From Cyclobacteriaceae bacterium (GTDB lineage: Bacteria; Bacteroidota; Bacteroidia; Cytophagales; Cyclobacteriaceae): a stretch of DNA of 40,266 nucleotides. The notes under the pieces are model-generated. The model searched no databases and was not told the DNA's origin. It saw only the letters and a list, made by a program, of their open reading frames with translations. Positions within the stretch are counted from its first letter, which is position 1, and every line of letters starts with the position of its first letter. Below, in pieces: positions 4,723 to 40,142 of the stretch. The DNA lies in contig JAEUUE010000119.1 of the NCBI GenBank assembly GCA_016787605.1, forward strand, positions 1 to 40,266, in the 5' to 3' direction. The position numbers were made by a program, and so were the translations under genes.

Positions 4723-8008
<3,286 letters not shown>

Positions 8009-31160: not shown

Positions 31161-31796
31161 TTAGTTGGGGCTAGGTCCGCCGGATTGATGGCGGGATTTG
31201 GTTGACCGCTTGACCTTCCCCTTCACCCGGAAGAGGGTGCTCGCGGAACCCCGGCAGGTATTGTAGAAGGTCACCAGGCCCACCAGCGTCTTGTCTTTCA
31301 ATGCCACCGCTGTCGCCCTTTGGCTTGCCTCCGGGCAGTCATTCATCAACAGGCTGAGCATGCGGGTGTAATTCCTGGAGCGTTGATCCGGCCGGGGGCC
31401 TTCCTGCATCGGCTCGATCTCGTCGGAAAGTTCGAAAAACACGCTGTCCCCCTTTTCTACAAAATAGATGTCACCAAACTTGAAGAGGTTCATGTACCCC
31501 CGGACAAGGACCTCGAGAAATACATCTGAAGTTCGTCCAATGGAACGCGAATAGTAGTACGCGCCATCGTCGGTACAGAAGCCGTGAATACTCCCGGGTT
31601 CATATTCTTTGGCGGCCGCCTTCCGGTCGGCTTTGAATTGGCAGGAAGACGGCGAGGCGCTACGGGACTGAAATCGGATGAGTCCTTTGACTGTGTCCAA
31701 CCGGTGCGTGAGCAGAAATCCTCCCTGGTATCCTGATGACTGCCCATCGGCCGTGTGGATGACAGTGACCAGGAAAAGGAGGAGGCCGAGGCGCAT
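31161..31796 (-). CDS. Secreted hypothetical protein, Bacteroidota-type
   Basis: The protein has 211 residues. A signal peptide (MRLGLLLFLVTVIHTADGQ) precedes a segment GGFLLTHRLDTVKGLIRFQ, whose L-T-x-x-x-D-T-V-K-G-x-I pattern is common in exported Bacteroidota proteins of unknown role. A C-terminal basic tail ends in SGGPSPN. ATG at 31796 is chosen because it begins the signal peptide. It follows idi on the same strand after 55 bases but has its own promoter-like pair (31801-31832), so it may not be part of the carotenoid operon. No catalytic motif is visible. Confidence 0.75.
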   Translation of the reverse strand: MRLGLLLFLVTVIHTADGQSSGYQGGFLLTHRLDTVKGLIRFQSRSASPSSCQFKADRKAAAKEYEPGSIHGFCTDDGAYYYSRSIGRTSDVFLEVLVRGYMNLFKFGDIYFVEKGDSVFFELSDEIEPMQEGPRPDQRSRNYTRMLSLLMNDCPEASQRATAVALKDKTLVGLVTFYNTCRGSASTLFRVKGKVKRSTKSRHQSGGPSPN

Positions 31797-31800
31797 GGCT

Positions 31801-31832
31801 GAAAAATAGGACACCTTGGCCCGCTTAAGCAA
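31801..31832 (-). promoter_or_regulatory. Putative promoter of the secreted hypothetical gene
   Basis: On the minus strand TTG (31832-31830), a 21-base spacer and TATTTTTC (31808-31801) resemble the Bacteroidota promoter, with one mismatch in the -7 element. It ends 4 bases before the ATG at 31796, so the message would be leaderless. Confidence 0.4.
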
Positions 31833-31851
31833 GTTTGTCGCCCCGGAGATT

Positions 31852-32367
31852 TTAGGAGGCGAGAACACCGGGATGCTGATGTTCGAGGATAAGGCGGAAC
31901 CAGTACGTGTAACGTTCCGGTGAAGCCGCCACATCCTTCAGGAGGTCGGCAACCGGAATGAATTTCCAGTCCTGCACTTCGTCCGGGTTGGCCCGGGGTT
32001 GGCCGTCAAAGGTCGCACGGAAGACATGGTCGACTTCATGTTCCACCAGTCCGTCGCCCAGTTCGACCCGGTAGGTGAACTTGTACAGGAAGCGTGGTTC
32101 GGCCTCGATGCTCATCTCTTCGCGCAGGCGTCGGGCACAGGCGTCGACCATCGACTCATTGGGTCGGGGATGGGAACAGCAGGTATTGGTCCACAGCCCC
32201 GCGCTGTGATATTTGGAGTCTGCCCTCCTCTGGACCAGGATATCCCCGTTGGAGTTATAGACGAGTACAGAAAAGGCGCGGTGCAGGAGTCCCTTGCGGT
32301 GCGCCTCCAATTTTTCCATGGTTCCGATGGCCCGGTCGTTATCGTCAACCAACACCACGTGGTCCAT
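31852..32367 (-). CDS. idi: Isopentenyl-diphosphate delta-isomerase, type I
   Basis: The enzyme interconverts isopentenyl and dimethylallyl diphosphate, supplying the starter for carotenoids. The 171-residue length is typical of bacterial type I enzymes. The catalytic cysteine is in TNTCCSHPRP, and the Nudix-like segment ARRLREEMSIE carries the metal and catalytic glutamates. HRAFSVLVYN and the C-terminal YTYWFRLIL segment (tryptophan near the active site) also match. It starts one base after the stop of crtB, so it is co-transcribed and probably translationally coupled to the carotenoid genes. Confidence 0.95.
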   Translation of the reverse strand: MDHVVLVDDNDRAIGTMEKLEAHRKGLLHRAFSVLVYNSNGDILVQRRADSKYHSAGLWTNTCCSHPRPNESMVDACARRLREEMSIEAEPRFLYKFTYRVELGDGLVEHEVDHVFRATFDGQPRANPDEVQDWKFIPVADLLKDVAASPERYTYWFRLILEHQHPGVLAS

Positions 32368-32368
32368 G

Positions 32369-33211
32369 TCAGATACGATTCAGTTGATGCTTGAGGAATG
32401 AATAGCCGAGGATAGCCAGCTTCCAGCGGTTGCGGACGCGAATACGGCTCTGCATCACCGCGGCAGAGGGAAGTTGCCGGATGCGGTGAAAGAGGGCGAG
32501 GTAATACCGGTAGGCGATATAGACTCCCAGGCGGGCGCCCCGGGGTAATTGCCGGATGCCGCGGAATCCCTGCCTGAAGTCTTCGGCAATGTCGGCCTCG
32601 ATCTTCTTCTTCGTCGCTTCGTCAAAGTTATCCAGGTTCAATCCCGGGAAATACGTTCTCCCCAGGGTTTTGTAGTCGGCCTGGAGATCGCGGAGGAAAT
32701 TGATTTTCTGAAAGGCGGAACCGAGTTTCATGGCATCCGGCTTCAGGCGCTCGTACTCGGCGTCGTTTCCCTGGCAGAAGACACGCAGGCACATCAGGCC
32801 CACGACTTCGGCCGAGCCGAGGATATAATGTTCATAGCCGGCCTGATCGTACCGTTTCTGCTCCAGGTCCATTTCCATACTCGTGAGAAACTGACGGATG
32901 AGATCGTGGTCTATCCCGTACCGGTTGACCGTGAGCTGAAAACTGTGAAGGATGGGATTCAGGCTGATTTGCTCGTCGATGGCGCGCCAGGTATCCTCTG
33001 TGAAGCGCTGCAGTAAGGCTACTTTGTCATGAGTGTGGAAGGTATCCACGATCTCATCAGCAAAGCGTACGAAGCCATAGATGGAATAGATCGGCGTTCG
33101 GAATTCCTTGGCAAGGCACCGGATACCCAGGGAAAAGGACGTGCTGTAGGCGCGGGTAGTCATTCGGCTGGCGCGCTGGCAGACCTGGTCGTAAAGTGAA
33201 ATACTGCTCAT
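32369..33211 (-). CDS. crtB: Phytoene synthase CrtB
   Basis: The enzyme condenses two geranylgeranyl diphosphates to phytoene, the first committed step to carotenoids. The 280-residue protein has both aspartate-rich sites: DEIVD in FVRFADEIVDTFH, and DLQAD in INFLRDLQADYKTLGRTYFP. The N-terminal TTRAYSTSFSLGIRCL is family-typical. ATG at 33211 is preferred to the upstream in-frame ATG at 33244, because the latter adds an unusual basic segment. A weak TACCTTTA element lies upstream within the 40-base gap after crtI. Squalene synthase is the alternative, made unlikely by crtI next to it. Confidence 0.93.
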   Translation of the reverse strand: MSSISLYDQVCQRASRMTTRAYSTSFSLGIRCLAKEFRTPIYSIYGFVRFADEIVDTFHTHDKVALLQRFTEDTWRAIDEQISLNPILHSFQLTVNRYGIDHDLIRQFLTSMEMDLEQKRYDQAGYEHYILGSAEVVGLMCLRVFCQGNDAEYERLKPDAMKLGSAFQKINFLRDLQADYKTLGRTYFPGLNLDNFDEATKKKIEADIAEDFRQGFRGIRQLPRGARLGVYIAYRYYLALFHRIRQLPSAAVMQSRIRVRNRWKLAILGYSFLKHQLNRI

Positions 33212-33251
33212 CCCAATCCTCTTCCGGTGGCTGTAAAGGTACAAAATCAGG

Positions 33252-34727
33252 TCAGATGCGTTCCCGGGCCATGATCTGGTCGGCCACCACCTGCCCCGAA
33301 ATCAGGGAAGGGGGAACGCCGGGTCCGGGCACGGTCAGCTGTCCTGTGTAAAACAGGTTGGTGACCTTTTTGTTTATGATCGACGGCTTGAGATGAGCCG
33401 TTTGCAGAAGGGTGTTGGCCAGCCCGTAGGCATTGCCCTTGAAGGCGTTATAATCGGCAATGAAATTGTTGTGCGCATAGCTCCGCTTGTAGGTCACATG
33501 TTGGCGAAGAGGTTGCCCTGTGAACCGCTCCAGCCGCTCCATGATGAGCGTGTAGTAACGCTCCCGGGTTTCGTCGTTGTCCTCCAAACCGGGGGCTACC
33601 GGGATGAGGAGGACGAGGTTTTCTCCGCCGAGAGGAGCGGCGCCTGGATCCGTTTTGGAGGCGCAGGAAACGTAGAACTGCGGAGCCGTCGGCCACTTAG
33701 GCTCTTCATAGATCTCGTGTGCGTGTTTTGTAAAGTCTTCATCAAAAAACAAGGTGTGATGAAGGACGCCTTCGACCCGCGTATTGAGGCCGACATAGAA
33801 AAGCAGGCTCGAGGGAGCCATCACCCTGCTGTTCCAATAGGATTCAGAATACCTCCGGCTTTCTTTCGGCAGCAAGTTCTGTTCGACGTGATGATAGTCG
33901 GCGCCGGCAACCACGTAATCGAATAACTCTTCCTGCCCGTTGACTACGACGCCGGTCGCCCGTCGGTCCTTGACGGGAATGCGTTCTACCGTGCTGGAGT
34001 ACCGGAAAATTACCCCTTGTTCCCGGGCGAGTTTCTCCATCCCCTTCACGATGGAATACATGCCACCCTGGGGATACCAGGTTCCCAGCGACATGTCGGC
34101 ATAGTTCATCAGGCTGTACAAGGCCGGAGTTTTTTCTGCGGTGGCGCCGAGGAATAGCACAGGGAACTCCAGGAGCTTGATCAGGCGCGGGTGATGAAAG
34201 AACTTGTGGAGATAGCGGGTGATCGACTGAAAAAGGTGTAGCCGGAGCGCCCCGGTCAACACCTCGCGATCGGCAAATTCCAACAGGGACAGGCCGGGTT
34301 TATAAACCAGGGAATTGATTCCTACTTCATACTTGAATTTGCCTTCAGCCAGAAATCGCCGGAGCTGTTTGCTGCTTCCGGATTCAAGTGAATCAAACAG
34401 CCCCTCGAGCTTCTCCATAGAGGCGGGGATGTCCATGAAATCGTTGACCCCGTACCAGATCCGGTAGGAGGGGTCCAGCCTTTTCAACGTATAGTATTGC
34501 GAGGGTTTCTTGCCGAAGCGCGCAAAGTACCGGTCAAACACATCCGGCATCCAGTACCAACTGGGTCCCATGTCGAACGTGAAACCCGCTTCGGAGAACT
34601 GCCTTGCCCGCCCTCCCGGGAGGTCATTCTTTTCGAAAAGCGTTACCTCGAATCCCTCCCGGGCGAGGCATGTGGCAGCGGACAGGCCGGCGAAACCGGC
34701 GCCGAGAACAGCAACCTTCTTCTTCAT
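33252..34727 (-). CDS. crtI: Phytoene desaturase CrtI
   Basis: This FAD enzyme desaturates phytoene towards lycopene. The protein has 491 residues. The N-terminal dinucleotide motif AVLGAGFAGLSAATCLAREG is at about 5-24, followed by FEKNDLPGGRARQF and FDMGPSWYWMP. The C-terminal signature NLFYTGQLTVPGPGVPPSL (about residues 460-478) is the classic bacterial CrtI-type phytoene desaturase pattern. It is 12 bases after the sigma factor gene, so it is part of the same operon. The number of desaturation steps cannot be read from the sequence. No cyclase or hydroxylase gene is seen in the window. Confidence 0.95.
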   Translation of the reverse strand: MKKKVAVLGAGFAGLSAATCLAREGFEVTLFEKNDLPGGRARQFSEAGFTFDMGPSWYWMPDVFDRYFARFGKKPSQYYTLKRLDPSYRIWYGVNDFMDIPASMEKLEGLFDSLESGSSKQLRRFLAEGKFKYEVGINSLVYKPGLSLLEFADREVLTGALRLHLFQSITRYLHKFFHHPRLIKLLEFPVLFLGATAEKTPALYSLMNYADMSLGTWYPQGGMYSIVKGMEKLAREQGVIFRYSSTVERIPVKDRRATGVVVNGQEELFDYVVAGADYHHVEQNLLPKESRRYSESYWNSRVMAPSSLLFYVGLNTRVEGVLHHTLFFDEDFTKHAHEIYEEPKWPTAPQFYVSCASKTDPGAAPLGGENLVLLIPVAPGLEDNDETRERYYTLIMERLERFTGQPLRQHVTYKRSYAHNNFIADYNAFKGNAYGLANTLLQTAHLKPSIINKKVTNLFYTGQLTVPGPGVPPSLISGQVVADQIMARERI

Positions 34728-34739
34728 GAGGGGCTAAAG

Positions 34740-35243
34740 TTACCGATAGCCCTCGAGTTTTGATTGAATTTCCTTCCGGGCGTGGAAGATGCGGTTCTTC
34801 ACGGTTCCAATTGGGATACCCAGCTCCTTGGAAATCTCTTCGTACTTGTAACCCGTGGTGTGCATCTTGAACGGGGTGAGCAGATCTTCCTTAATGGAAT
34901 TCGCATTTTCCCAGATCTCCTTGAACTCCATGGTATCCTGCGGCCGGTTGAAGGTGTGCTCATCTTCCACGTTGAGGTAGTACAGCTCCTTCGAGTTGTC
35001 GCGGGAGGTCTTTTCGCGCTGGGCCTTCCGGTAGTTGTTGATGTAGGTGTTCCGCATGATCGTGAACAACCAACCTTTAAGGTTCGTGTCCTTCCGGAAC
35101 TTGTCGCGGTAAGTCAATGCCCGGAGTAACGTGTCCTGGACAAGGTCCTGCGACTCCTCCTTATTGTAGGTAAACCGGTGAGTAAGAGCCTTGAGCGTAG
35201 GCTGCAAGCGGGTAAGCTCGGCGGTAAACTCTGCTGTGGTCAT
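34740..35243 (-). CDS. ECF-type RNA polymerase sigma factor
   Basis: The protein has 167 residues. Region 2 is at about 10-80 (YNKEESQDLVQDTLLRAL, GWLFTIMRNTYINNYRK), and region 4 is near the C-terminus (YKYEEISKELGIPIGTVKNRIFHARK). Only these two regions are present, as in ECF factors. No anti-sigma gene is adjacent. ATG at 35243 is chosen over 35282, because it starts the conserved part and leaves room for the promoter. It lies between the CarH-like regulator and crtI, so by analogy with LitS/CarQ systems it probably drives light-induced crt transcription (inference). Confidence 0.92.
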   Translation of the reverse strand: MTTAEFTAELTRLQPTLKALTHRFTYNKEESQDLVQDTLLRALTYRDKFRKDTNLKGWLFTIMRNTYINNYRKAQREKTSRDNSKELYYLNVEDEHTFNRPQDTMEFKEIWENANSIKEDLLTPFKMHTTGYKYEEISKELGIPIGTVKNRIFHARKEIQSKLEGYR

Positions 35244-35251
35244 TGTCGTAC

Positions 35252-35321
35252 TGTTTAATCTTTGGCATTTAAGACTAAACAAAAATACGTATCCAAGTAG
35301 ATTTTGGGCTATTTTGTTTAA
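35252..35321. promoter_or_regulatory. Promoter region of sigma-crt operon with three TAAACA words
   Basis: On the minus strand TATTTTTG (35287-35280) is an exact -7 match with no TTG at -33. Three copies of (T/C)TAAACA surround it: 35252-35258 and 35315-35321 in gene orientation, and 35275-35281 inverted, the last overlapping the -7 element by two bases. A repressor at these sites would block transcription. Confidence 0.5.
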
Positions 35322-35337
35322 CGTTATTTGATATTAA

Positions 35338-36225
35338 TTAGACAGCCTTGAGACTTTCAAGGCGGCCCTTGAGCTGCTGCGGATTCTCCAGGATTTGCAG
35401 GTTTTGAGGTATCCGGAGGGCAATTTTGGTCAGGTTCTGACCGGCCGCCAGCACCGGGATCCCGGGGTGGTCCTTGCAGAGTTTTTGAAGGTAAGCTTCA
35501 ACAAGGTTAGGTGCCGGGGAGGTGGTAATGCTGGTAATCATGGCCGCCGGGCGCAGGTTTTGGCAGAACCAAACCACATCCTTGTACGGGGTACGCTGGC
35601 CCATGTAGTACGCCCGGAATCCGGCTTTCTTGACCAGGTAGTAGCTGAACAGCAAACCCAGTTCATGCAATTCCTCATCCGGGAGAAAGAGGATAATCCG
35701 GGGGGCGGCTTTGCCGGCAGGGGGCAGGGTGTCGATGGCCACCAGGATCTTCTGGCGAAGCAGGTTGGTGATGAAATGTTCCTGGACCGGGGTGATGTGC
35801 CCGGTAAGCCAGAGAACACCGATTTTCTCCAGGAAGGGATAAACGATCTCGAGGATGGTCTTCTCGAAGCCAAAACGATGGATGAGCTCGTTGACAATGG
35901 CATCAAATTGTTCTTCATCCAGGTCCACCATCGCGACGACAAGCCGGTCAATGTGAAGGTCCGGGTGGGGCTGGGACTCGCTCAGCTCGCTGACCTTGTG
36001 GGATAATTCTGTCGAGTTGAGTTTGGCGATCTTGGAAATCTTGACCCCATGGTTATTGAGCAGCGAGACCTTGATGATCTTCTTCAGGTCTTCATCCGAA
36101 TAGAGCCGGATATTGGTGGACGTGCGCTTGGGGGCAACGATCCCATACCTTTTCTCCCAAATCCGGATGGTGTGGGCCTTGATTCCCGACAGTTCCTCAA
36201 GTTCTTTGATCGAATATTGAGCCAT
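35338..36225 (-). CDS. carH: CarH/LitR-like MerR regulator with B12-binding domain
   Basis: The 295-residue protein is a predicted coenzyme-B12 light sensor and repressor. A MerR helix-turn-helix lies at residues 3-70 (YSIKELEELSGIKAHTIRIWEKRYG). A four-helix bundle carries the W-x9-EH motif, with W139 and E149-H150 (WLTGHITPVQEH). The cobalamin fold carries ExHxxG at E185-H187-G190 (EELHELG), with H187 the expected lower cobalt ligand. The residue after the capping tryptophan, a histidine in the Thermus protein from memory, is L140 here. It lies upstream of the sigma-crt operon on the same strand, as expected for light control of carotenoids. The light response is inferred, not shown. Confidence 0.9.
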   Translation of the reverse strand: MAQYSIKELEELSGIKAHTIRIWEKRYGIVAPKRTSTNIRLYSDEDLKKIIKVSLLNNHGVKISKIAKLNSTELSHKVSELSESQPHPDLHIDRLVVAMVDLDEEQFDAIVNELIHRFGFEKTILEIVYPFLEKIGVLWLTGHITPVQEHFITNLLRQKILVAIDTLPPAGKAAPRIILFLPDEELHELGLLFSYYLVKKAGFRAYYMGQRTPYKDVVWFCQNLRPAAMITSITTSPAPNLVEAYLQKLCKDHPGIPVLAAGQNLTKIALRIPQNLQILENPQQLKGRLESLKAV

Positions 36226-36249
36226 GGAGTGTCTCCGGTCGCCTTTTCG

Positions 36250-36281
36250 TGTTTAACTTCCCGATTCGGGGATTTGTTTAG
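36250..36281. promoter_or_regulatory. Candidate operator between carH and the Lhr-type helicase gene
   Basis: TGTTTAA (36250-36256) and TGTTTAG (36275-36281) are 25 bases apart, in the same orientation, on either side of a palindrome CCCGATTCGGG (36260-36270). They are the same words found in the sigma-crt promoter (reverse complement TTAAACA/CTAAACA). The 62-base divergent region must hold the promoters of both genes. Confidence 0.5.
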
Positions 36282-36287
36282 GGAGCG

Positions 36288-38732
36288 GTGGAAAAATTAA
36301 CTGAAACGTGCTTTCCGGCCTACCAATGGTTCAACAGCCAGGGTTGGAAGGCTTTTCCCTTCCAGGAGGAAACCTGGCGCCATTACCTGTCCGGCCGGTC
36401 AGGTCTGGTCAATGCCCCAACGGGCAGCGGGAAAACCCACTCCCTGTCGATTCCCATTCTGCTGGAAGGCCTTGCCCTGAAACCCAGGAAAGTCCAGGCC
36501 CTCTGGATCACCCCCATCCGCGCCCTGTCGAAGGAAATACAATCCGCAGTCTCGGAAGCCGCCGAAGGACTTGGCTCTTCCTGGAAGATTGGAGTAAGGA
36601 CGGGCGACACCCGCGTGGCAGAAAAGTTACGCCAGAAGGAGAAGCCGCCGGGACTGCTCATCACCACCCCGGAAAGCCTGCATCAGCTGCTGTCGCAAAA
36701 GGGCTACCGGGATTATTTCGCTGACCTTAAAGCCATCGTCATCGACGAGTGGCATGAATTGATGGGCTCCAAACGCGGGGTGCAGATGGAGCTGGCGCTC
36801 GCCCACCTCAAGGGACTTTGCCCTGGTCTCAAAGTCTGGGGTATTTCAGCAACCATCGGCAACATGGAGCAATCGCTCGAGGTCTTGCTGGGTGCTGATG
36901 CGGTGCGCAACGAGCATCGGGTGGTTCGCGCCGAGGTGGAGAAGCAGGTGGAGGTGATTTCGGTTTATCCCGATAGTGTCGAAACACTGCCCTGGGCAGG
37001 ACACTTAGGCATTCATTTGCTGGATAAGGCGATATCAGTAGTGAAGGAGAGCCAGAGCACGCTCATCTTCACCAATACCCGATCCTTCGCCGAGATCTGG
37101 TACCAGAAGATGCTTGACCGCGCACCGGATCTGTCGGGGCTCATCGCCATGCATCACGGGTCCATCAGCCAGGAGCTGAGGCATTGGGTGGAGGAGCAAT
37201 TGCATGAAGGAAAGCTAAAGGCGGTCATTTGCACGTCCAGTCTCGACCTCGGCGTCGACTTCCGGCCCGTGGAAACGATCATCCAGGTGGGTAGCCCGAA
37301 AGGTGTGGCTCGCTTTCTTCAGCGGGCGGGGAGGAGCGGGCACCGCCCGGGCGCCGTCAGCAGGATCTACTTCTTGCCCACGCATTCCCTGGAACTGCTG
37401 GAAGCGGCGGCCATCCGGCAGGCCGTCAAGGAGAAGGTAGTGGAAGACCGTTTACCATACCTGAGGTCCTTTGATGTGCTGGTGCAGTACCTTGTCACGC
37501 TGGCCACGGGCGAAGGCTTCCATCCTGCTGCTGTTCTGGAGGAGGTGCGCCGTACCTACTGCTTTCAATCCATTACCGACGACGAATGGTCCTGGGCCCT
37601 CAACTTCATCACGACGGGGGGAGCCTCGCTGACGGCGTATGATGAATACCGAAAAGTGGAAATTGAGAGTGGCGCCTACCGCGTGACCGATCGGCGCGTG
37701 GCTCTCCGTCACCGGCTCTCCATCGGAACCATTGTGAGCGACGCTTCGATGCTGGTCCGCTACGTGTCGGGCAAGCAATTGGGCACCATCGAGGAGTATT
37801 TCATTGCCCAGCTCAACCCCGGCGATGTGTTCTGGTTTGCCGGACGAAAGCTGGAATTGGTACGGGTGAAAGACATGGAGGCCCTGGTCAGGAATACCAA
37901 GCGAAAGTCGGGGCGCGTGCCTTCGTGGCAAGGTGGCCGGATGGCGCTTTCCAGCCAACTCAGCGAGATGATCCGGCGCAAGGTGCATGCCGCCGCGATC
38001 GGGCGTGAGGAAGACGAAGAGCTGCATTTTCTCCGGCCCCTCCTGGACCTGCAGCGCAACTTGTCGCTGCTGCCCAGGGACAATGAGTTCCTGATCGAGT
38101 ACTTCGAAACGGCCGAAGGTCATCATGTAGTCATGTACCCCTTCGAGGGCCGGCTGGTTCATGAAGGCCTCGCCTCACTCGTGGCCTATCGCATCGCCCA
38201 GATTTTACCCATTACCTTCTCACTCGCTATGAACGACTATGGGTTTGAGCTCCTTTCCGATCAGCCCATCCCGCTGGAAGAAGCCCTGGAGACCAATGTG
38301 CTCGGTGATGAGAATCTTCTTAAGGACATCCAGGCCAGTATCAACTCGGTGGAGATGGCCCGGAGAAAATTCCGGGATATCGCCAGCATCGCCGGGCTGA
38401 TTTTCAAAGGATATCCTGGGCAGCGTGTCCGCGACAAGCACGTGCAGTCATCCTCCCAGCTATTTTTCAATGTCTTTCACGAATACGACAGCACCAACCT
38501 GCTCTTGTTGCAGGCGTACGAGGAAATGATGGACTTTCAGCTGGAGGAAGCCCGCTTGCGCAAGGCCCTGGAACGGATCAAGGGGCAGAAGATCGTCGTG
38601 CGGTATCCGCAGCGCCCCACACCCTTTGCATTCCCCATCATGATCGACCGGCTAAGCCGTGACCGACTGACCACCGAAAGGCTGGAAGACCGGGTGAAAA
38701 AGATGGCGCTCGAGTGGGAGCAGCAGAAGTAG
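36288..38732 (+). CDS. Lhr-type, ligase-associated DEXH-box DNA damage helicase
   Basis: The protein has 814 residues. Motifs are: Walker A APTGSGKT (43-50), TPIRALSKEI (Ia), TTPESLHQLL, DEXH box VIDEWHELMGS, SATIGN, TSSLDLGVDF (V) and QRAGRSGHRPG (VI). The winged-helix and Lhr-core C-terminal parts follow. The length and motif spelling match the helicase usually found with an ATP-dependent DNA ligase and an MBL-fold exonuclease; neither is in this window. The start is GTG at 36288: an in-frame TAG at 36279-36281 excludes an upstream start and no usual start codon follows soon. It is divergent from carH. It ends 3 bases before the convergent phosphate transporter. Confidence 0.9.
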   Translation: MEKLTETCFPAYQWFNSQGWKAFPFQEETWRHYLSGRSGLVNAPTGSGKTHSLSIPILLEGLALKPRKVQALWITPIRALSKEIQSAVSEAAEGLGSSWKIGVRTGDTRVAEKLRQKEKPPGLLITTPESLHQLLSQKGYRDYFADLKAIVIDEWHELMGSKRGVQMELALAHLKGLCPGLKVWGISATIGNMEQSLEVLLGADAVRNEHRVVRAEVEKQVEVISVYPDSVETLPWAGHLGIHLLDKAISVVKESQSTLIFTNTRSFAEIWYQKMLDRAPDLSGLIAMHHGSISQELRHWVEEQLHEGKLKAVICTSSLDLGVDFRPVETIIQVGSPKGVARFLQRAGRSGHRPGAVSRIYFLPTHSLELLEAAAIRQAVKEKVVEDRLPYLRSFDVLVQYLVTLATGEGFHPAAVLEEVRRTYCFQSITDDEWSWALNFITTGGASLTAYDEYRKVEIESGAYRVTDRRVALRHRLSIGTIVSDASMLVRYVSGKQLGTIEEYFIAQLNPGDVFWFAGRKLELVRVKDMEALVRNTKRKSGRVPSWQGGRMALSSQLSEMIRRKVHAAAIGREEDEELHFLRPLLDLQRNLSLLPRDNEFLIEYFETAEGHHVVMYPFEGRLVHEGLASLVAYRIAQILPITFSLAMNDYGFELLSDQPIPLEEALETNVLGDENLLKDIQASINSVEMARRKFRDIASIAGLIFKGYPGQRVRDKHVQSSSQLFFNVFHEYDSTNLLLLQAYEEMMDFQLEEARLRKALERIKGQKIVVRYPQRPTPFAFPIMIDRLSRDRLTTERLEDRVKKMALEWEQQK

Positions 38733-38735
38733 CGA

Positions 38736-40142
38736 TCAGAAGATCGAGCGGAACAGCAGGAACAACGAGCCGGCCATCATCATCACCACGGGAAGGGTCA
38801 GGAACCAGGCGAGCAGGATGTTGCGAACTGTATCCGGCTGAAGGTTCTTCACTCCCTTGCTGGCTACCATGCTGCCGGCCACGCCGGATGACAGTACATG
38901 CGTCGTGCTGACGGGCAGGCCAAAATAGCTCGACATCCCGATGGTGCTGGCGGCCACCAGTTCAGCGCTGGCTCCCTGGGCATAGGACAGGTGCTCCTTG
39001 CCGATTTTTTCTCCGATGGTCTTCACGATCCGCTTCCATCCGATCATCGTGCCGAGTCCCAACGATAAGGCGATCATCACAATGACCCAGCCCGGCGAGT
39101 AGTCGGTTACTTTGCGCAGTGCTTTCAGGTTGGTCTTGATCACGGCCTGATCGCTGGAGCTGACGCGCACCTCCTCCTTCTTCAGGAGTTTGTTGAGGTT
39201 GCGGTCAAGAACAAGTATTTCTTTCCGGATCTGGAATCGCTCATCGCGAGGCATGGTTGAAACCCGTTGAGTGAGTTCACCCCGGAGTTGCACACCCAGG
39301 GCTTTTGACTCCTCAAGCATCTTGCGATCGGCCTCGGAAAGAGGAGCTGGATCAATGCTGCCCATGACCTGCTCCAGCCGGTGCAGGGGTTCGCCAAGTT
39401 TGGAGGTGTCGAAGTCAGCATTGAGGGCAAAGTAGCCGGGCACGATGCCGATGAGGATGAGCATGACCAAACCCACGCCTTTCTGGCCATCGTTCTGTCC
39501 ATGAAAGAAGCTGACTCCCGTGCAGGTGAGCAACAGGATCGAGCGGATCCAGGGCGGAGGAGGGGTGTTCTTTTTGGGTTCTTTAAACAGATCTTCGCCG
39601 TACGCTTTCTTCCGGGTGGCCACGCGCAGGAAATACATCAGCACGATAGTAACGCTGAAGCCAAAGAGCGGGGAAATCAGCAGTGACATCCCGATTTCCG
39701 TGGCTTTGGTCCAGTTGACTGCGGCGCCTGCGGCATCGGGAAGAAACGAATAGGCGATGCCCACGCCGAGAATGGAACCGATCAGTGTATGGGAACTCGA
39801 ACAAGGGATACCGAAATACCAGGTGAGCAGGTTCCACGAAATGGCACTGATGAGCAAGGCCCCTATCATGGACAAGCTGTGGGCGATGTTTTGGTCAATC
39901 AGGGTTTCTACGGGCAGGAGGTTCACGATCCCCATGGCCACAGAAATGCCGCCGAGGAAAACCCCAAGGGCATTCATCATTCCCGACCAGATCACTGCCG
40001 CCCAAGGTTTCATGGAATTGGTGTAGATCACCGTTGCCACGGCGTTGGCGGTGTCGTGGAAGCCATTGACAAACTCAAATCCGCACGCAGCAACAAGGCA
40101 TACCACTAGCAGAACGCTATACGACAATTCGAGCTCAAACAT
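38736..40142 (-). CDS. pit: PiT family inorganic phosphate transporter
   Basis: The 468-residue protein is a low-affinity phosphate:cation symporter. The two inverted PiT signatures are present: FVNGFHDTANAVAT at residues 24-37 and, in the C-terminal repeat, QGASAELVAASTIGMSSYFGLPVSTTH. About ten to twelve membrane spans are visible (for example VIWSGMMNALGVFLGGISV). A cytoplasmic charged loop of about 100 residues sits in the middle (QRVSTMPRDERFQIRKEILV), which the typical E. coli Pit has in a different form. No PhoU gene is next to it. A promoter and TTAAC direct repeats lie upstream, which suggests phosphate control. Confidence 0.93.
   Translation of the reverse strand: MFELELSYSVLLVVCLVAACGFEFVNGFHDTANAVATVIYTNSMKPWAAVIWSGMMNALGVFLGGISVAMGIVNLLPVETLIDQNIAHSLSMIGALLISAISWNLLTWYFGIPCSSSHTLIGSILGVGIAYSFLPDAAGAAVNWTKATEIGMSLLISPLFGFSVTIVLMYFLRVATRKKAYGEDLFKEPKKNTPPPPWIRSILLLTCTGVSFFHGQNDGQKGVGLVMLILIGIVPGYFALNADFDTSKLGEPLHRLEQVMGSIDPAPLSEADRKMLEESKALGVQLRGELTQRVSTMPRDERFQIRKEILVLDRNLNKLLKKEEVRVSSSDQAVIKTNLKALRKVTDYSPGWVIVMIALSLGLGTMIGWKRIVKTIGEKIGKEHLSYAQGASAELVAASTIGMSSYFGLPVSTTHVLSSGVAGSMVASKGVKNLQPDTVRNILLAWFLTLPVVMMMAGSLFLLFRSIF

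Follow-up and report, generated by a model that had tools for sequence, protein, structure and literature searches.

What links a photoreceptor-like gene to the carotenoid genes that lie downstream of it? This question is raised by a contig from a Cyclobacteriaceae bacterium (JAEUUE010000119.1; "the window" below is this whole stretch of 40,266 nucleotides), on which a carH-like regulator gene is followed by a gene for an extracytoplasmic function (ECF) sigma factor and by genes for carotenoid synthesis. The original prediction for this DNA proposed that the word (T/C)TAAACA, which occurs in the two short promoter regions of the module, serves as the operator for B12-dependent light control. 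We find that three of these words are arms of two long-spaced inverted repeats, TGTTTA-N18-TAAACA and TGTTTA-N18-TAGACA, and comparison of related loci throughout a large bacterial class gives good support to this palindrome as a DNA pattern. The module is a regular member of a Bacteroidota-wide system, of which the window shows a small version. Whether one CarH/LitR-like B12 photoreceptor with an inverted-repeat operator switches proton-pumping rhodopsin, carotenoid (through the ECF sigma factor) and pterin synthesis in the class Bacteroidia appears to us an evenly balanced question. What is new is the form of the operator and its extension to genes for rhodopsin and pterin synthesis. In the open-access literature, a coverage that takes in little of the subscription journals and preprints, we found no description of the system and, among the titles listed, none linking CarH to control of a bacterial rhodopsin.

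A palindrome between carH and the ECF sigma gene

Matches to Pfam and NCBIfam models confirm the predicted gene order on one strand. The minus strand from 36225 to 31852 encodes a MerR/B12-binding_2 protein, an ECF sigma factor, CrtI, CrtB and the NUDIX/isopentenyl-diphosphate isomerase Idi. The features of the module are as follows.

35338..36225, minus strand: carH-like regulator, 295 aa, with a MerR DNA-binding domain, four-helix bundle and Rossmann B12 domain
35315..35344, no strand assigned: candidate operator O2, TGTTTA-N18-TAGACA, both arms fitting TnnACA
35280..35287, minus strand: TAnnTTTG element that merges into an arm of O1, resembling a Bacteroidota -7 element
35252..35281, no strand assigned: candidate operator O1, TGTTTA-N18-TAAACA, an exact 30-bp inverted repeat whose position and spacing are conserved in relatives
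34740..35243, minus strand: ECF sigma factor gene, which starts with ATG and leads the putative operon (Sigma70_r2 and Sigma70_r4_2)
33252..34727, minus strand: crtI-family desaturase (NCBIfam CrtID, NF058655, 728.5 bits, cut-off 640)
32369..33244, minus strand: crtB, phytoene/squalene synthase family (SQS_PSY)
31852..32367, minus strand: idi, type I isopentenyl-diphosphate isomerase (NF002995 and TIGR02150, both above cut-off)

All five predicted words are present in the two promoters, and the window holds a sixth at 39583. Six occurrences in a sequence of this size are ordinary (shuffle mean 4.6); five within about 156 bp of promoter have a Poisson probability of about 7e-10, given a background of 10 TAAACA/TGTTTA words per window. 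The words at 35252 and 35275 are the two arms of O1, which ends 8 bp upstream of the ECF ATG; a search of the 3.98-Mb assembly found no other exact copy. The word at 35315 is one arm of O2, the other arm of which, TAGACA at 35339-35344, overlaps the last codons of carH. The two sites are 63 bp apart, or about six helical turns. Palindromes at no more than one mismatch occur twice in the window, and at no more than two mismatches four times versus 0.56 expected. The ECF gene most likely starts at the ATG at 35243; an alternative, longer reading frame would begin with TTG at 35282, at the edge of O1.

Conservation in relatives had been put forward as a check of the prediction, and TAAACA is indeed conserved there, as the half-site of the palindrome. 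Of the 291 genomes of the order, 237 gave a CarH match at E 1e-20. From the matches listed, excluding the window's own, 140 of 149 loci form our order set; nine were passed over. In these loci and the window, inverted TGTTTA/TAAACA pairs occur 68 times with a spacing of N18 and 13 times with N19, and at most 5 times with any other spacing from 0 to 60. Among 80 loci from named genomes, some of which share contigs with the order set, the counts are 62 for N18, 6 for N19 and at most 2 for other spacings (0-40), and 49 loci carry a site. Loci from other orders of the class gave 20 pairs with N18 and 1 with N19, with a site in 14 of 25.

In the order set, 53 loci had an ECF match, one of which was excluded because its ECF gene is on the other strand. 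All of the remaining 52 gaps between carH and the ECF gene, including that of the window, contain the palindrome at no more than one mismatch (43 of them an exact copy; reversed control, 1/52). The corresponding figure for the named set is 44/48 (control 2/48), three of its 51 loci with an ECF match, L312 among them, having been dropped by a position cut-off. Tandem sites are common in the 52 gaps, with 22 pairs 43-45 bp apart, 14 pairs 63-65 bp apart and eleven at other distances, each seen once. In a logo of 59 exact sites, positions 9-11 and 18-20, which lie inside the arms, are nearly restricted to A and T; these may perhaps be wing contacts. The TAnnTTTG sequence, which we take to be a Bacteroidota -7-like promoter element, abuts an operator arm in 8 of the 52 carH-ECF loci, and its mirrored form in 0/52. 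For the copy in the window, no TTG is present at the expected -33 position.

The five words had been treated as a single class. Those of the ECF promoter are inverted repeats, whereas the two in the carH promoter form a direct repeat without palindromic partners, and we rejected the latter as an operator:

36250..36256, minus strand: TTAAACA, no palindrome
36275..36281, minus strand: CTAAACA, 25 bp from the TTAAACA word, in direct orientation

The carH promoters of the window and the six best-matching loci (L036-L041) hold 10 such words where a background that is mostly coding predicts 0.7, but these gaps are AT-rich, and the reversed word is itself found 5 times in them. The palindrome is found in 4/52 of the ECF-linked carH promoters (control 0/52). 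TAAACA stands as a candidate operator word in the ECF promoter, where three copies are palindrome arms, and is unsupported in the carH promoter. The pattern nnTnnACAnn, also offered as evidence, was set aside as too loose to weigh because TnnACA matches 212 times on both strands of the window.

Distribution of the site and its candidate targets

Exact N18 sites tend to co-occur with carH among the genomes of the order. The 237 genomes with CarH contain 537 sites compared with 271 for the reversed control, and the 54 without it contain 34 compared with 37. From the latter we chose 20 by hand for a CrtI search, which found CrtI in 14. An ECF gene precedes crtI in five of these 14 loci. Among these, the 99-100% complete genomes G286, G208 and G258 have the ECF-crt arrangement but neither a CarH match at E 1e-20 nor the palindrome. 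The other nine CrtI loci showed neither an ECF gene beside crtI nor a site at one mismatch. Where carH is not linked to an ECF gene, its own promoter carries the site within 200 bp upstream in 22 of 88 cases (control 1/88).

Forty stretches around listed matches to the exact site were picked by eye, on the basis of AT-rich spacers and shared flanks. Their neighbourhoods include rhodopsins (PF01036), 6-pyruvoyl tetrahydropterin synthases (PTPS; PF01242), ECF sigma factors, and fasciclin and DUF4397 proteins. Because the stretches were picked by eye, we treat this gene list as a lead. Rhodopsin and PTPS loci were fetched by gene family, independent of the motif, as the 30 best matches returned as loci in each search, and scored for a site at no more than one mismatch within 250 bp.

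Rhodopsin genes carry the site in 13/30 loci of the order (control 1/30) and 15/30 of the class (control 0/30). Genome G156 is one with a rhodopsin gene that has the site. When they are divided by the helix-C triad, the site precedes 27 of 47 with DTE, which we take to mark the proton-pump type, and none of nine with NDQ, DTA, DSA or DTS. Four of the 60 rhodopsin loci (L252, L417, L431 and L441) were excluded from this comparison, and one of them, L417, has the site. In L252, L392 and L431, contig-end cuts or misreading led to misplaced start codons, and these loci count as misses. Two loci from other orders, L432 and L442, were likewise scored as misses, their palindrome being upstream of the operon: both have a PTPS-folE-rhodopsin-carH cluster with a single palindrome before PTPS, and in L442 a crtI-like gene comes next. 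Sites before the rhodopsins of L257, L260, L269 and L270, all from family f13, have a spacing of N19 rather than N18, perhaps a lineage-specific change.

For PTPS genes, the site was found in 13/30 loci of the family (control 1/30). In five inspected loci, PTPS is followed by a folE-like gene and then a short-chain dehydrogenase/reductase (SDR)-like gene, and Pfam matches confirmed both in L206. The original prediction, which was confined to the module, underestimated the reach of the site, which in relatives also lies before rhodopsin and pterin genes. The palindrome further precedes fasciclin-domain genes (in L207, and in L213 by similarity) and DUF4397 genes (in L221, in L224 by similarity and in L235/L236 by eye), and both groups are possible additional members of the regulon.

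The genome of the window itself offers little of this. No rhodopsin was found in it. It has two PTPS genes, one of which (locus L397) has no site; the other is on C151. A wide regulon in this genome was considered and rejected, as two of the three one-mismatch sites outside the window are inside open reading frames (on C42 and C172). The third (C149) is directly before a 244-aa frame.

Two further features of the window are recorded here:

36288..38732, plus strand: ligase-associated DEXH helicase, divergent from carH (TIGR04121, 1092 bits, cut-off 850)
4723-7368 and 7076-8008: judged by eye, presumably a catalase-peroxidase gene adjoining a LysR/OxyR-like regulator

The helicase gene is also divergent from carH in six of the seven nearest named relatives (L276-L281; not L293). 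We treat this DNA-damage helicase as a neighbour of the module.

A candidate B12 sensor and its competitors

The regulator of the window matches MerR_1 (E 2.7e-15), and its predicted structure combines a four-helix bundle with a Rossmann B12-binding fold. CarH proteins of LitR class I have the motifs Wx9EH and ExHx2Gx41SxV/Tx22-27GG (PMC8156234, section 10). The window protein has the former (W139, E149-H150), and for the latter reads ExHx2G-x41-SxT-x26-AG (E185, H187, G190), so that one Gly of the GG pair is replaced. Among the 141 homologs of the order set, all keep Wx9EH and the ExH histidine, and none has the strict form of the longer motif. A cobalamin adenosyltransferase is encoded in the genome.

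Four of the 80 named homologs, all from Saprospiraceae metagenome-assembled genomes (L315, L328, L333 and L355), have ExQ in place of the cobalt-ligating ExH, and in three of them (L315, L333 and L355) Wx9EH reads EN instead of EH. These substitutions are predicted natural losses of the B12 ligand. The fetched flanks of the four loci contain no exact palindrome.

We consider it probable that the MerR/B12 protein is a CarH/LitR-type sensor that acts at the palindrome with B12. The half-site TAAACA matches the CarH half-site TnnACA (PMC9304148). The direction of control, which we suppose to be repression, is less certain than the pairing of sensor and operator. Gene order, B12-domain motifs, predicted fold, operator, spacing, conservation and co-occurrence with carH are all read from sequence. 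It is plausible that the protein binds the operator, is loaded with B12, represses in the dark and is released by light, and that the ECF sigma factor has the targets suggested below. The light chemistry in this model is drawn from knowledge of the family, and the operator from comparative evidence.

In the dark, the protein loaded with adenosylcobalamin (AdoB12) would occupy O1 and O2 as a dimer or higher oligomer. These sites lie upstream of the ECF start, in the gap that follows the carH stop codon, and their occupancy would shut off the ECF-crtI-crtB-idi promoter. On illumination the Co-C bond would break, the oligomer would dissociate, and transcription of the operon would lead to carotenoid. 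Among the genes after the ECF gene, one of which (an open reading frame at 31161-31934) has no Pfam match, we identified no anti-sigma gene; the sigma factor would therefore be gated by transcription, and it may also act on further promoters to strengthen the response. The switch would reach further in relatives, where this operator also stands before carH itself, before the gene for a proton-pump rhodopsin and before a pterin operon (PTPS-folE-SDR).

Several observations weigh against this model. The B12 motif is non-canonical, with A261 replacing the first G of GG; Gly190 is replaced by Ser in 96/141 homologs of the order set; and none of the 141 has the His after Trp that in Thermus gives rise to the bis-His light state. 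The match to the NCBIfam CarH equivalog NF052513 is 109 bits, below its cut-off of 400. As for the site, no exact copy is present in the flanks of 31/80 named and 11/25 class carH loci, and 4/48 named carH-ECF gaps have none at one mismatch. It is also missing from 66/88 unlinked carH promoters, 20/47 DTE rhodopsins and 17/30 PTPS genes. In the genome of the window, sites at no more than one mismatch (5) are no commoner than the control (9), and some CarH-containing families have no genome-wide excess of sites over the control (f2, 11 vs 26; f4, 32 vs 33; f5, 20 vs 17). Two genomes without a CarH match, G033 and G082, retain the site before ECF-crtI; these assemblies are incomplete (84% and 75%), and may simply miss the carH contig. 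Finally, all counts and P values take genomes as independent and ignore relatedness.

Our confidence in the competing explanations need not sum to one with that in the preferred model, because the explanations overlap. The weaknesses of the B12 motif and the absent bis-His residue could mean that the carH product does act at the palindrome but has ceased to sense light through B12. Like Myxococcus CarA, it would then bind DNA without B12, and it would report another signal or partner protein. The ExQ and EN proteins, with no exact site in their flanks, fit this idea. We judge it unlikely, given that all 141 homologs of the order set keep Wx9EH and the ExH histidine, that the genome encodes an adenosyltransferase, and that light control would be a sensible fit for the genes behind the site, those for rhodopsin, carotenoid and pterin synthesis. 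Activation rather than repression is improbable: the protein might, as many MerR regulators do, reshape a long-spaced promoter from the palindrome, as suggested by the MerR fold and by the pair of half-sites flanking a long spacer, and TAnnTTTG abuts only 8/52 of the start-proximal sites, so that a promoter can be placed in few of the loci. A site 8 bp before the ATG would be an odd location for an activator, and those CarH and class II LitR proteins that have been characterised are repressors (PMC8156234 and PMC9758184).

The site retained in the two incomplete CarH-negative assemblies could instead point to recognition by another co-inherited regulator or by the ECF sigma factor itself. This seems very improbable, since the two-fold symmetry is unsuited to a sigma factor, since G208, G258 and G286 keep the ECF gene without carH and without the site, and since the half-site fits TnnACA and carH is itself a target in 22/88 unlinked loci. 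Least credible is a form that follows the original comparison with Thermus, in which all five words would make up Thermus-type CarH operators of tandem 11-bp TnnACA direct repeats. The five words do exist, but in neither promoter of the window do two TnnACA words lie 11 or 22 bp apart, and when TnnACA is taken as the unit in the 52 carH-ECF gaps, the inverted N18 arrangement occurs 91 times and the direct period of 11 twice.

A 2013 paper (PMC3587595) described how flavobacteria control proteorhodopsin as an open question. If the class-wide reading, with one B12 photoreceptor as the light switch, is true, the photoreceptor would be the missing regulator of proteorhodopsin in these bacteria, and rhodopsin phototrophy would be tied to the supply of vitamin B12. 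With B12 as chromophore, aquatic bacteria of a large class would depend on this supply for both rhodopsin and carotenoid. A candidate regulator, operator and targets make the control of proteorhodopsin testable in cultured relatives, such as Algoriphagus, for which ten named loci have carH-ECF-crtI-crtB and an exact site. The long-spaced inverted operator would offer a new mode of DNA binding for comparison with the tetramer of Thermus CarH, and an alternative component for optogenetics.

Comparison with known light-responsive regulators

In the Streptomyces LitR-LitS system, an ECF sigma factor directs carotenoid genes. The module of the window is alike in having the sensor gene beside ECF sigma and crt genes. 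In a LitR/LitS-type cascade the sensor controls an ECF sigma factor that directs crt transcription; here the palindrome lies before the ECF-crt operon, whose sigma factor may or may not direct the crt genes. It differs in belonging to another phylum and in having the ECF and crt genes arranged as one operon.

The analogy with Myxococcus that accompanied the original prediction is inexact. In Myxococcus xanthus, crt genes are also under light control by the MerR/B12 proteins CarA and CarH. As described in PMC9304148 and PMC8156234, however, CarH and CarA act directly at the crt promoter of RNA polymerase-sigmaA, and the ECF factor CarQ is held by the anti-sigma factor CarR in a separate branch. 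Inverted repeats proposed at Pcrt were later reread as direct repeats (PMC9304148).

Class II LitR proteins of Pseudomonas (PplR1, PmlR2) offer a parallel for the operator, which in their case is TGTACA-N12-TGTACA. PMC9758184 describes an operator of two hexamers, places two such sites in promoter P6650, one of them between the transcript start and the start codon, and reports folE/folM as light-induced. The systems thus share a two-hexamer operator and paired sites, and folE/folM are comparable to the PTPS-folE-SDR operon. Class II proteins have the four-helix bundle alone and PmlR2 is signalled by a LOV protein, whereas the window protein has a Rossmann B12 domain. With this fold in the predicted structure and a spacing of N18 rather than N12, the protein falls outside class II.

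Among the closest known systems are also the class I LitR proteins, CarH of Thermus thermophilus and of Bacillus megaterium. The predicted architecture of MerR domain, four-helix bundle and Rossmann B12 domain is the same, as are Wx9EH, ExH, the TnnACA half-site and carotenoid targets (PMC9304148 and PMC8156234). Thermus-type CarH differs in binding 11-bp direct repeats, nnnnTnnACAn, where the Bacteroidia sites are inverted repeats with 18-19 bp between hexamers. The wing residues are GGHR in Thermus and TNIR in the window protein, which also has no His after Trp and has AG in place of GG.

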